NCBI GenBank assembly: GCA_003278195.1
Contig: QCGE01000001.1
Coordinates: 62,001-126,000, forward strand
Source of the DNA: Prochlorococcus sp. AG-363-P08
GTDB taxonomy: Bacteria > Cyanobacteriota > Cyanobacteriia > PCC-6307 > Cyanobiaceae
DNA: 64,000 bases
Reading direction: 5' to 3'
The stretch's first letter is position 1; each line of letters starts with the position of its first letter. The notes below the pieces were generated by a model that had not been told where the DNA came from, ran no database searches, and saw nothing but the letters and a program-made list of their open reading frames with translations. Positions 9,311 through 30,314 of the stretch are shown piece after piece. The position numbers and the translations under genes were made by a program.

Positions 9311-12296
9311 TAATAGTTAACAAGGCTCCTCTCAAAAGTTCACTGCGGCTATATGTACGTCCGTCTCCATCTGTAGCGGGAGATTCACTCATAGGTGGCT
9401 GGCGATTCTGATCACGCAACCTTTTCAAAAGAGCAACTTGAAGGAAGCCTAATGGAACTATTGTTCTATTCCTGAGATCAACAGACAACTGCAAAGCCTT
9501 ATCAGCAGCTAAAAGTCTTGAGTTTCCTGTAATTTCCATTACCAAAGTTCTAGTTCTATTATATTCGTTTTCAATAACATCAAATATTTTTTTAAAGGCC
9601 TCACGATTATCATTACTACCAAGACTATTAACGTAGTGTTGTGCTAAATCAAGGTCTACCTTTGATAAAGTCATCTCAACTTTTGATATCAACATTCTAA
9701 AAAATGGCCAACGTTGATGAAGCATTCTAAGTAGGTCAAGTTGAGAAGAATCTGAAAGCAATTCAGCTTCTAAAGCAGTGCCAACACCAAACCAACTTGG
9801 CAGTAAAAATCTACTCTGCGTCCAACCAAAAACCCATGGAATAGCCCTTAGGCTTGACAGATCCTTTGCACCCCTTTTACGTCTTGCAGGGCGACTAGAA
9901 ATCTGTAATTTACTAATCTCTTCAATAGGAGTGACTTGTTGGAAAAACGCTACTAAATCAGGGTTATCATGTACCAAAGCCCTGTAATGTTCTCTTGATC
10001 TTGCAGCCAATCTTGTCATCAACTCATTCCACTCTGGCGTTGCATCAAGTTGATTAGTTACAAGGCTATTCTGCAAAACTGCAGTAGTTACAGTCTCTAA
10101 ATTATAAAGAGCAAGCTCTGGAAGACTATACTTTGAAGCAAGAACTTCTCCCTGCTCAGTAATTTTAATTCTCCCCTGAAGTGTGCCACTAGGCTGAGCA
10201 AGAATTGCTTGATAAGCCGGTCCTCCTCCTCTGCCAACAGAACCTCCTCGTCCATGAAATAACCTTAAAACAACTCCTTTTTCCTTAGCTAGATTTTGCA
10301 AAGCAATTTGGGCCTGATGAATCTCCCAATTACTAGAAAGAAAACCTGAGTCTTTATTACTGTCTGAATAGCCAAGCATTAATTCCTGGAGTTGTTGTGA
10401 TTTCTCTCCAACAAGTGGAAGTAAATTTCTATATATAGGAGTCTCAAATAAGTCTTCCATCACTGCAGGTGCATGCTGCAAATCTTCAACTGTCTCAAAT
10501 AAAGGAACCAAAAGAAGCTCTGAGTGACGTGCAACTGGATCAACCAAACCAGCTTCTTTAGCTAACAACAAGACTTCTAATAAATCAGATCCACTATGAC
10601 TCATTGAAATGACATATGTTCGACAAATTCGGCTTCCAAATTCCTCCTGAAGTCTGGTAAGCATACGAAACACAGCGAATGTTTCAGCAGTGCTATTAGA
10701 CCATTCAACAGATGAAGGTATAAGTGGCCTCCTTGTATTTAACTCTGCCTTTAACCATTCTACTCTTTCAGATTCTTCCATGTCTTCATAGGACTTAGGA
10801 AGATTTAAATAGCGAGTCAATTCATCAATTGCATCACTATGCCTAGTACTCTCCTGACGAATATCTAAACTTGCTAGAGAAAATCCAAATATCCTCACTT
10901 GAGTTAGCAAAGTTTCTAGTGGCTCACATGTAAGGTCTGTACTTACCAAACTATTTCTTATCAGCTCTAAATCACTACGAAATTCAGCAATTGATCCATA
11001 ATGAAGATCTTCAACTAAATTAATAGAAGGCCTCAGTTTACTAATGCCCTCAGGAACTATCTCCCACCCTGCATCTGCCAACTGTTGATTACGTTCTTGA
11101 GTTAATCTCAAACGTTCTAATGTATAACTTAATTTCAATCTATAAGGTTCTAATCTATATCTGGCTGCACGTTCTTCATAGACCTTAGGAAAATGCAATC
11201 TATCCATTTCCAAAGATTCTAATAATGGAGCACTTACCTGACTCCATTGCATTGAAATACTCAATTGATCTCTAAGGTCTTGTACAGCACTGATATAACG
11301 ATCCAACATTAATTTACGCTGATAGCAAGCTGTTCTCCATGTGATCTCAGGGGTGACAGATGGATTCCCATCTCTATCTGAACCAACCCATGAGCCAAAT
11401 GTACAAAAAGCTGCCTGTGGTATATGTACATCTGGATAACTAGATGCTAAAGCTGTAGAAATCCTCCTTCTAAGTTGCGGCATTGCATCAAACAAAACCT
11501 GCTGAAAATAGTGGAGTGCATAATCAACCTCATCAAGAACAGAAGGCTTGAATTGATGTAATTCGTCTGTTCGCCACCAAAGACGTATTTCTTCTTCAAG
11601 CTGAAGTCTTAAAATTTGATTCTCAGTTTCCGAAATAAGCGTATCAGACTGCAACTGCTGCAACAAACTTGCTACTCTTCGTTGTTTATGACGAACCGTA
11701 TGTCTTACAATTTCAGTAGGGTGCGCTGTAAATACAAGCCGAATATCCAATTCCTGAAGAAGATTCTCTAACTGTGCTGGAGGAACATTTAAGCGACGTA
11801 ATCTTTCAAAGAGTTCTCGAAATGTTGCAGGATCAGTCTGACTCGCCAATGGAGGGGCGAATGGATCGACAAGATCTTCTTCATTATTATCTCTACTTCT
11901 TTTCATGCTTTCTAGATAGCTATCTTCTTCAATACGCTGCTCAAGAATATTGACAAGTTGAAAATATAAAGAGAACGCTCTAGCAGCCGTAATTGCTTCT
12001 GCTAAATCCATCTCCCGGATCAACAAAATAATTGCAGCACTTGTCCCAGCTTCATCACTACCTTCGACTGCAAGTGGATCACTTAATTGCTTAAGACGAA
12101 ATAAGCGTTCTGCTTGTTCTGGAGCACATTCACTATGTAACACTGTTTGCCATAAGTCCTCTACAAGCTCAAGTCTTTGCTCCAAAAGACGGCCAGATTG
12201 ATTTTGAACTTGTTTAGTCTTGATTGCATCTTTATATTTGCCATTTAATGGCTCCAAATCATTCATTAGGTCTTTAGCAGAATCTGATTTAGTCAT
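9276..12296 (-). CDS. ppc: Phosphoenolpyruvate carboxylase
   Basis: 1006 aa; [51 protein letters not shown], final residues RNTG. Confidence 0.97.
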
Positions 12297-24419: not shown

Positions 24420-24490
24420 GGCGGCATGGCCAAGCGGTAAGGCAGAGGATTGCAAATCCTTTATCCCCAGTTCGAATCTGGGTGCCGCCT
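24420..24490 (+). tRNA. tRNA-Cys (anticodon GCA)
   Basis: ggcggca...GGATTGCAAATCC...CCCAGTTCGAATCTGGG...tgccgcct; perfect 7-bp acceptor. Confidence 0.95.
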
Positions 24491-26403: not shown

Positions 26404-26937
26404 ATGAAGCCTATCAAACAGATTAAAAAAACAAGAGAAGCTTCACCACTTTTTAAATACTGGGGATCCGAGCAAAACAAGGACGATGAAATGGAAAGAC
26501 TTTCAATGAGTAATCCTTCCGGTCCATACAAAGAAGGTGTTGCCTTATTTAATGAAGAGCCTTATAAGTGGGAAATCTTATATCAAAGTATTTTAAAAGA
26601 AATCATAATGGGAGACAAAAGCTGCATAAATAGTCTTTCAAAACTACTACTATCAGTCAACATATCTGAAAGAGAAAAAGTTATCAAAAACTTCTCGAAA
26701 TTAAATTTACTTGAAAAAGAGATAATTGCGGAAATAAGTGAAATTATCTTTTCTAAAGAAAATGATATTTTAAATGGAAGCCATTACCCTGGCAAAAAAA
26801 ACAATGTAAAAAGATTTATCAGAATATTAATTGCAATTTTTACAAATCCGTATGGAGTAGAATTAAAAGCAAAAAAAACCAAATTATATGAACATACTGG
26901 CTATATAATAAATGCTATCAAGCAGCCTTACACATAA
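26404..26937 (+). CDS. Hypothetical protein, no recognisable domain
   Basis: 177-aa ATG-initiated ORF in accessory-looking region. Confidence 0.5.
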   Translation: MKPIKQIKKTREASPLFKYWGSEQNKDDEMERLSMSNPSGPYKEGVALFNEEPYKWEILYQSILKEIIMGDKSCINSLSKLLLSVNISEREKVIKNFSKLNLLEKEIIAEISEIIFSKENDILNGSHYPGKKNNVKRFIRILIAIFTNPYGVELKAKKTKLYEHTGYIINAIKQPYT

Positions 26938-26949
26938 CCACTTAACTCT

Positions 26950-27630
26950 TTATTGTTGTTCAACTATTATTCGCCTTATTGTTGAAAGAGCTAGTCCTGT
27001 TTGCTCTCTGATAGCCCGATAAGAGAATCCATCTTGCCTTAACCTGATGACTAGCCTCTCCTTAATAGGACTAGTTCTTGGCCTCCCCCCAGTATTCCTA
27101 ACTAGAAAATATTCTTCATCTATATTTCTATTTGGCTCGGCATAAATAGGCTTTTCCTGAAGTGATAAGAGCCCGTAAAGCAATGAAATAATTGGCAATG
27201 ATACATTTCCTATTTTACTAGTGTCAATAAGGCCATCAATACTTCTAATCTCTATCCCCTGACTATGTATGCAATGCAGAGAATTTACAACCCTAGAATA
27301 ATTACTACCTAAAGAACTTAAAGTCAAAAGAATTAATTGATCCCCATACCGCAGATTCTTTAATGCCAAATCTAATTGTGGCCTTTCGTGTATAGATCTA
27401 ACACTGGTTGAAATGTCCTGAAAAATCTTATGACAACCCTCCCTTCTAAGTAGAGAAACTTCTTTATCCACATCTCGACTAAATGGACCTAAGTAAGAAT
27501 ATCCAACTTTCCTCCTAAAAGAATCCGCCATGAATGGCTTTCTATGAGCAAGAAACCGTGAAGAAGTTTTCCTAAACCCAGGCATAAAAGTTCCAATAAC
27601 ACTGTTCCAATAACTATTATAGCGAAACAA
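26950..27630 (-). CDS. Serine recombinase (Hin/Gin invertase-like) homologue with substituted catalytic residues; HTH C-terminus. Start may be 27531
   Basis: VGYSYLGPF...CHKIFQDISTSVRSIHERPQLDLALKNLRYGDQLILLTLSSLGSN...GIEIRSIDGLIDTS; C-terminal GGRPRTSPIKERLVIRLRQDGFSYRAIREQTGLALSTIRRII. Confidence 0.75.
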   Translation of the reverse strand: MFRYNSYWNSVIGTFMPGFRKTSSRFLAHRKPFMADSFRRKVGYSYLGPFSRDVDKEVSLLRREGCHKIFQDISTSVRSIHERPQLDLALKNLRYGDQLILLTLSSLGSNYSRVVNSLHCIHSQGIEIRSIDGLIDTSKIGNVSLPIISLLYGLLSLQEKPIYAEPNRNIDEEYFLVRNTGGRPRTSPIKERLVIRLRQDGFSYRAIREQTGLALSTIRRIIVEQQ

Positions 27631-27874
27631 ATCCAGAACAGTTATCAGAACAGCTGTAATTATGGGCTGATCTCTAAATTTTCATTATTTTTGAAGCTTT
27701 TACAAAGCCCTCACCATTCCAGTAATAATAAGATATATGTTATGCAAACCGTTTTTAAAGTACTAAGTCCAAACATAGGCTCTTTAGATTAAGCTTTCTT
27801 TGTTTATTGAGTTGACAACCTAGGATTGGATTCAAGAGCTTGAAACGCTCCCTTTCTAAAATTTAATTATCCAA

Positions 27875-28147
27875 GTGGGTGCTAGCAGGGGAATAAGAAA
27901 AAAAATCCTTTTAAATGCTATTTCTGTTGTCATGCTGATTCCAGGAATATGTCTAGCAGATACGCAAATATGCGAAATTAAATATGGTGAAAAGAATCTT
28001 GATCAAAATAAAGCTATAAATTCATTTACCCGTCTATTAAATAATCAGAATATAGAGAAGTGTCATCAAATAGGGATTGAATTTAATGAGTTTGGAGAAG
28101 AGCTATCAGACAAACCAATTTATGCTTGTTGCTCTCCCGGCGAATAA
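27875..28147 (+). CDS. Small putative secreted hypothetical protein (GTG start)
   Basis: 90 aa with signal-peptide-like ILLNAISVVMLIPGICLADT and several Cys. Confidence 0.45.
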   Translation: MGASRGIRKKILLNAISVVMLIPGICLADTQICEIKYGEKNLDQNKAINSFTRLLNNQNIEKCHQIGIEFNEFGEELSDKPIYACCSPGE

Positions 28148-28462: not shown

Positions 28463-29137
28463 CTATTCAGAGTCAGGGAGATTTGGATCTGGACTAACCA
28501 CTACTGGCAAACTTGAAGTATTGTTTTTTGGATTAGAAGGGGATGACCGCATAGGTAAAACAACTTTTACAGGGGGAGGTTCTGGCGGAGTCCTTGGAGG
28601 AGTCGCTTTCTTCTCCTTCTCCTCTTCCTCCTCATTAGAACAAGCGGCTAATGCCTCTCTCAATAGAGAATCAAAAGTTGCTCCGGGAAGTCTATGTCTA
28701 GCAACTTCTAAAAATGTTCTTGGAAGGGATTCAGCTGCTGCTGTTCGCAATGCTGGGTTATTACGTCGATGCTCCTGCTCATCTTGAATGGCTCGAATAA
28801 AGCGACGAGTTACATCCCTCTTAGTTGACGCCTTGATAAAGGTGTCATTATCACCCACCCCACTTCCTACTTCACGCTCAAGATCACTTAATCGTCTATC
28901 AAGACTTTCAAGAACCTCTTCAGCTTCCTTTCCAATATGGGCCAATTGGCCATCTGAAAGATTAGGCATATCTGCCACATAAACCTTTCCATGATCCCTA
29001 AGGGTCAAAAAAGTAGGTCTTGCGGCTTGACGGCTAGCGCCATTTACTTCATAACCTCCTTGAAGTGGCCTGCGAGGAGGAACTGGACCAGCAGAACTAC
29101 GTCTCCGCGTTAGGCGTTGAGAACTATCAAAAGGCAT
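28463..29137 (-). CDS. Hypothetical protein with charged middle and Pro-rich C-terminus
   Basis: 224 aa; EEEEEKEKKATPPRTPPEPPP low-complexity tail. Confidence 0.55.
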   Translation of the reverse strand: MPFDSSQRLTRRRSSAGPVPPRRPLQGGYEVNGASRQAARPTFLTLRDHGKVYVADMPNLSDGQLAHIGKEAEEVLESLDRRLSDLEREVGSGVGDNDTFIKASTKRDVTRRFIRAIQDEQEHRRNNPALRTAAAESLPRTFLEVARHRLPGATFDSLLREALAACSNEEEEEKEKKATPPRTPPEPPPVKVVLPMRSSPSNPKNNTSSLPVVVSPDPNLPDSE

Positions 29138-29273: not shown

Positions 29274-30314
29274 TCATGAGCTAGGCAAACCCTTTACTAA
29301 TTGCTGATCCTTGTCTGTATGAGCTTCTACGACTCCTATTGTCCAAGCATCAAAGCCTGTATTGGAAGAAACCTCCAAAAATCGCTTCTCCTCAAATTCT
29401 GAAACAACAGCGCAAAAGCCAATTCCAAGATTAAAGGTATTCCAAAGGTCAACTTCAGGGATTTCTCCGGCTTCTTGAAGCCATGTGAATATTTCTGGTC
29501 TAGACCAAGCTTTGACATCAACAAAGGCTCTAAGACCAGTAGGTAAACACCTTGGAAGATTCTCTGGCAAGCCACCACCAGTGATATGAGCCATAGCTTT
29601 GACCTCTACTTTTGCTCCTAAAAGGGACTTAACCAATTCTCCATATAACTTTGTAGGCTCTAAAAGTGTATTGATCACTGAAACTTGGTCTTTGCCATAT
29701 TGAGTGGTTTGATCAACTTTCTTTAGGTCTAAAACCTTTCTAACAAGGCTAAAGCCATTGCTATGAACACCACTACTACCTATACCAATAATCCTGTCAC
29801 CCTCGCAAACATTACTACCATCAATTAAAGCTGCCTCTTCGGCAACCCCAACACAAAAACCAGCCAAGTCATATTGACCAGGCATATAAAAGCCTGGCAT
29901 TTCAGCTGTCTCCCCGCCTAACAAAGAACAACCACTCAAGCGACACCCCTTGGCAATTCCCTCAATTACTTGACCCATAGCAGCGGGACTAAGTATTCCG
30001 GTAGCTATGTAATCCAAAAAGAAAAGAGGTTCCGCTCCAGAAGTGATTACATCGTTAATACACATAGCCACAAGATCAATACCTACCCCAAAATGAGCTT
30101 GATACTTCTGAGCCAACTCAAGCTTGGTCCCCACTCCATCAGTACCTGCAACTAAAACTGGACTCTTCAGTCCTTCAGGAAGACGAGTAAAACCTCCAAA
30201 GCCCCCCAAGCCACCTATCACCTCCTTCCGATAGGTGGCTTGCACGTTAGATTTGATTTGATTCACGAAAGACCTTCCGGCCTCAACGTTTACTCCTGAA
30301 GTCTTGTAATCCAT
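29274..30314 (-). CDS. purM: Phosphoribosylformylglycinamidine cyclo-ligase
   Basis: [54 protein letters not shown]. Confidence 0.96.

Follow-up and report, generated by a model that had tools for sequence, protein, structure and literature searches.

The window analysed here, a 64,000-nucleotide stretch of the Prochlorococcus sp. AG-363-P08 genome, contains an open gene for a small serine recombinase that has lost its catalytic residues. Judged from the DNA and its relatives, the gene probably encodes a domesticated resolvase, one that does not recombine DNA but binds its own promoter and probably represses transcription from it (probability about 0.6). When mobile-element enzymes are described as domesticated, they have usually kept their chemistry. 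What appears to be new is a naturally catalysis-dead resolvase keeping operator-like res sites, and the papers searched contained no earlier account of one.

Family assignment and fold

The gene and its DNA-binding domain were placed as follows:

26950..27585 (-), dead small serine recombinase, 211 amino acids from the ATG; the open reading frame reaches a TTG at 27630
26965..27090 (-), C-terminal DNA-binding domain (GGRPR...SYRAIREQTGLALSTIRRII), near-invariant in dead and intact copies

The reading frame (26950-27630, reverse strand) is uninterrupted over 226 codons counted from the TTG, as the first-pass annotation of this DNA had stated. The likely start is the ATG at M16 (27585-27583), placed by alignment with intact relatives, which gives the 211-residue protein.

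The protein matched Pfam family PF00239 (E = 3.7e-8; 34 bits against a cut-off of 23.3) and PHROG 125, DNA invertase (5e-12). PDB sequence matches at about 1e-8 included Gin, Sin, and Tn3 and gamma-delta resolvase, with the Gin entries 4m6f and 3uj3 among the best. A structure model built with 18 relatives (pLDDT 78.8, pTM 0.54) had Tn3 resolvase on site III as its best Foldseek match (5cy1, E = 1.5e-11), with further matches to Sin (2r0q) and gamma-delta resolvase (1gdt). The catalytic domain of the model has the resolvase fold, with TMt values of 0.73-0.76 to 2rsl and 2gm5. Pfam, PHROG, PDB sequences and fold all bear out the serine-recombinase family that the first-pass annotation had read from motifs. 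Its label of a Hin/Gin-type protein was too narrow, since the best structural match is a Tn3 resolvase bound to an accessory site. Hin and Gin invertases share sequence similarity, size and domain order with the window protein; unlike them, it has lost the catalytic residues, and no invertible segment was shown at the locus.

The C-terminal helix-turn-helix (HTH), also named in that annotation, proved to be real: HTH_23 and HTH_7 matches to it fall below the Pfam cut-off, but over 47 residues it shares 77-79% identity with the corresponding domain of intact relatives.

Loss of active-site residues

R45 and D67 have active-site roles in serine recombinases. The same is true of R8, R68 and R71 in resolvase (PMC4499144). 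Six positions were scored (R8, S10, R45, D67, R68 and R71), and the window copy reads YGRSSS across them. At the GYxRVS position it has GYSYLG, with R8 replaced by Y46 (27493-27495) and the nucleophile S10 of small serine recombinases by glycine, G48 (27487-27489). At the DRLGR position it has SSLGS, with D67 replaced by S105 (27316-27318), R68 by S106 (27313-27315) and R71 by S109 (27304-27306). The sole active-site residue kept is R45, as R83 in ERPQL (27382-27384). The alignment thus upholds the initial motif reading, in which GY-x-R-V-S-T had become GYSYLGP, with loss of the arginine and the nucleophile, and DRLGR had become SSLGSN, with loss of the aspartate and both arginines.

Loss of catalysis in the window protein is supported by these replacements. 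A recombinase that is still active and uses the substituted residues would have the intact fold and HTH and the retained R45 in its favor, but such activity is scarcely credible with a glycine at S10, a position that varies among the clade relatives, and with R8, D67, R68 and R71 all lost.

Relatives of the dead recombinase

A family-wide search found a relative in 172 of 400 genomes, and the named loci with relatives belong nearly all to Prochlorococcus and Synechococcus single-cell genomes. No relatives of the recombinase were found in the viral contigs searched. All six active-site residues were kept in 47 of the 98 aligned copies. In seven copies (L090, L093, L099, L100, L111, L115 and L116) only D67 was changed, to serine, mostly as SRLGR or SRIGR.

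On the tree, the window copy grouped with six others in a clade with a support of 95, and all seven are dead. Their states at the six positions were YGRSSS, VERDSL, LDRDCL, NTRRAD, AVRWSS, VHKNCD and FCREYN. Among window-clade relatives the S10 position was occupied by E, D, T, V, H, C or G. A topology test did not reject a single clade for all copies lacking S10 (p_AU 0.118). By parsimony the tree requires at least six changes, so catalysis may have been lost once or several times.

Three other species of the genus (G001, G002 and G003) carried dead copies (L040, L041 and L043) at the same locus, each with different replacement residues. The first-pass annotation had asked whether the catalytic substitutions would be conserved among orthologues, and in this genus they are not. 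It had also held that close orthologues with an intact active site would point to recent decay or a sequencing problem. None was found: the closest intact copy is 44-45% identical to the window protein, and every same-genus copy at the locus is dead. Because several other genomes have dead, open copies at this locus, sequencing error as the source of the dead residues is very unlikely. Relative to the window protein, the same-genus copies are 62-72% identical in the HTH and 28-32% identical in the catalytic domain.

Several truncated copies keep mainly the C-terminal HTH (L208:1623-1904, L209:1354-1549, G024:C32:1532-1645 and G016:C42:51-278). Those of L208 and L209 are about 96% identical to an intact copy. 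The truncated copies may be either decaying mobile copies or stand-alone HTH proteins.

Locus and neighboring genes

The gene lies in a variable island with the following neighbors:

24420..24490 (+), tRNA-Cys, on the lpxB-like side of the island
26404..26937 (+), orf177, convergent neighbor, adjacent in the genus and often unlinked elsewhere
27875..28147 (+), orf90, encoding a small protein with what looks like a signal peptide, divergent from the recombinase gene
28463..29137 (-), conserved orf224, the purM-side island border, used for synteny
29274-30314, purM, next after orf224

In G001-G003 the gene is likewise located between purM/orf224/orf90 and orf177/lpxB-like, and each of the four species of the genus has orf90 divergent from it. 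Shared regulation of orf90 with the dead recombinase is possible. Obligate partnership of orf90 and orf177 with the gene was rejected, as each also occurs without a recombinase. A Pfam search of the neighboring ORFs showed no transposase.

In other genera, dead copies (L044-L048) and intact copies (L051, L056 and L108) were found at or near the island, which was thus also reached by active copies. G009 retains, between orf90 and orf177, only some 70 residues of a relative, and G023 has nothing of the recombinase left at the orf90/orf177 locus. The gene is therefore dispensable in some lineages. In G024 (L048:6813-9148) and G009 (L200:4130-5326) the recombinase or its remnant is inverted relative to the window order at this locus; orf177 is likewise inverted in G024, not in G009. 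The island with the dead copy of G003 also holds a second, more distant serine recombinase (L041:11224-11805; WRTS...SRLGRS).

Dead and intact copies can occur together, as in G002, which holds both dead L043 and intact L042. This co-occurrence and an HTH nearly the same as in active mobile copies would suit a dominant-negative or accessory subunit, which would bind the sites of active relatives or enter mixed tetramers and so limit how far mobile copies arriving at the same islands can recombine; resolvase with the S10A change is still able to synapse DNA (PMC4499144). Such a role is improbable for the window protein, given that its own genome (84% complete) has no second PF00239 match and that the high-light genomes described below usually carry one family copy.

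Sites upstream of the gene

Most intact copies have an ordered, res-like array of three GTGTTCCAWTAAGG sites upstream of the gene, with positions given relative to the IGY motif:

Site A, GTGTTCCAATAAG, at about -216
Site B, GTGTTCCATTAAGGCGTTCTGGTTG, at about -134
Site C, TTTTTGGAACAC, at about -79, just before the ATG

The corresponding region of the window contains:

27590..27614 (+), two direct copies of GTTCCAATAAC (27590-27600 and 27604-27614), which read GTTATTGGAAC toward the gene
27616..27621 (-), TATAAT hexamer, candidate -10, between the two site groups
27633..27651 (-), GTTCTGATAACTGTTCTGG, corresponding to site B (GTTCCATTAAGGCGTTCTGG) in the intact copies

The GTTCCAATAAC/GTTATTGGAAC copies are the counterpart of site C (TTTTTTGGAACAC) of intact relatives, and by alignment the window sites stand in the same order as B and C. 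Binding-site-like repeats are thus found upstream of the gene and around a candidate promoter, as in Tn3-type systems. A sigma-70 and terminator scan, which gave nothing of use at the operator-like sites, does not list the hexamer because it lacks a good -35 partner.

A site matrix trained on intact copies scored the window upstream region above 300 of 300 shuffles. Pairs of GTTCNNATAAC, direct or inverted, occurred only at this promoter in the 1.58-Mb genome, with zero control matches, and the inverted pair formed by GTTCTGATAACTGTTCTGG and 27604-27614 occurred once in the genome. Site C overlaps the position expected for a ribosome-binding GGA, and its conservation alone therefore proves little. 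Neither alignment nor matrix gave a clear site at the position of the distal site A in the window. The matrix also gave no significant match at the dead copies L041, L043, L048, L067, L069 and L110, so the operator-like sites are not conserved across the dead clade.

Crossover in Tn3 takes place at the site distal to tnpR, and resolvase autoregulates the promoters that lie within res (PMC7157771). By analogy, site A would be the crossover site, and the window pattern would resemble a res site reduced to its operator part.

A genome-wide single-site search turned up three other TGTTCYRATAAC matches; they were rejected as targets because they lie within apparent coding frames, and nothing else pointed to a wider regulon. 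A 66-bp inverted repeat near intact copies was rejected as a crossover site, being outside the A-B-C array and resembling a hairpin-rich island repeat. This repeat was found in inverted orientation near intact recombinases at L052:7284-7349 and 11291-11356, and also in L057, L142 and L144; the stretch upstream of the gene in L144 is inverted relative to L052. The inverted stretch suggests that island segments rich in TPR-type genes rearrange.

Constraint on the dead protein

Compared with intact L060, the window protein is 32% identical in the catalytic domain and 79% in the HTH; compared with dead L040 and L041 the values are 28-32% and 70-72%. The latter two copies have both lost R8, S10, R68 and R71. 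Between them, codon positions 1/2/3 differ by 0.43/0.25/0.62 in the catalytic domain and by 0.22/0.12/0.64 in the HTH. Second positions thus differ far less than third positions, which argues that the protein is still constrained. In a neutral simulation from an intact copy, 7% of frames were open at 80% identity and 0 of 400 at 45%; the simulation used substitutions only, without indels, and is hence conservative.

These data bear on the alternative that the gene is a slowly decaying relic, which lost its function recently, whose frame is still open and whose sites are functionless leftovers of res. Decay or absence of the counterpart at the same locus in G009 and G023, catalytic positions that vary freely among dead copies, the missing distal site, the sites undetected in several dead copies and the low identity of the catalytic domain would all fit a relic. 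An open frame at such divergence is nevertheless unexpected without constraint, the codon-position asymmetry persists between two copies that have the same losses, and the four species of the genus have a conserved HTH. A relic is accordingly considered unlikely. The earlier view of a repurposed protein rather than a decaying pseudogene holds in that fold and HTH are kept and evolution is unlike free decay; it does not extend to two other genera, in which the gene has decayed or been lost at the locus.

A proposed route from resolvase to regulator

A domesticated regulator is the reading preferred here, and its regulatory role is supported indirectly by the res-like sites at the gene's own promoter. 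The ancestor would have been a Tn3-resolvase-like serine recombinase, whose active relatives have a res-like site array upstream. In the window lineage the chemistry would have been lost, while the fold, the HTH and the two promoter-proximal sites were kept. The dead protein would bind these sites, probably as a dimer, and would probably repress its own promoter in the way that Tn3 resolvase acts at res; an effect on the divergent orf90 is also possible. The comparisons above establish homology, absence of the active-site residues, synteny, a conserved HTH, constraint on the protein and retention of the sites at this promoter alone; from them we infer DNA binding, dimerisation, repression and the role at orf90. 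Binding without cleavage is feasible, as the S10A variant of resolvase still binds DNA in addition to synapsing it (PMC4499144).

The window gene shares with TnpR and res of Tn3 and gamma-delta the fold (5cy1), the C-terminal HTH and a site array directly upstream. At res, bound Tn3 resolvase regulates its own gene, tnpR, along with tnpA (PMC7157771), and a similar autoregulation is proposed for the window protein. In contrast to Tn3 and gamma-delta, the window copy lacks all catalytic residues but one, no transposase or transposon turned up among the neighboring ORFs searched, no distal site can be made out in the window, and the half-site sequence and spacing differ. The Sin tetramer at site II offers a second likeness, a resolvase-family protein that acts by DNA binding without cleavage at that site; unlike the window protein, Sin has an intact active site and carries out recombination at site I. 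The S10A resolvase resembles the window protein in the loss of the nucleophile, but is a laboratory mutation, whereas the window protein represents a natural lineage.

A parallel dead clade in high-light Prochlorococcus

A second group of dead relatives was found in genus g18, whose genomes appear to be of the high-light Prochlorococcus type from their gene content and the single-cell genome AG-418-C09. The dead relative was present in 160 of 200 g18 genomes and in 63 of the 66 high-quality ones, and high-light genomes usually carry a single family copy. In this relative S10 is replaced by T, I or A, R45 by K, and R71 mostly by K. It adjoins a lipA-like gene, from which it diverges, and gltB-, psaL- and psaB-like genes lie nearby (names by sequence reading); example copies from G020-type genomes are L053:6526-7203, L059:6750-7412 and L117:5602-6264. 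Most of the g18 spacer varies; the exceptions are a site pair, TTTAGAACGTTATTTTTAATACAGATATCAGAAC, which is related to the motif of the family, and the stretch adjoining the gene.

The dN/dS comparison that the first-pass annotation had proposed was run on this clade and gave a median of 0.19 over 187 pairs, with 0.25 for the catalytic domain and 0.06 for the HTH; these figures describe the high-light clade, constraint in the window's own genus being judged from identity and from codon positions between L040 and L041. The g18 clade provides the strongest evidence that a dead family member can have a selected function. The g18 and window clades may either share one catalytic loss or have lost catalysis separately.

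Natural lineages appear to have kept a resolvase for its DNA-binding side alone; among high-light Prochlorococcus, nearly all good genomes carry a gene of this kind, and purifying selection on it is strong. A broader proposal, held tentatively and at slightly less than even odds, is that Prochlorococcus turned small serine resolvases into non-cutting, res-derived regulators, possibly repeatedly, one of which became near-universal in the high-light clade. If true, a highly abundant photosynthetic organism would have gained a regulator that similarity searches assign to a recombinase family, and the sites would be an example of a res site becoming an operator. The near-universal, single-copy g18 gene may be a more important experimental target than the window gene.
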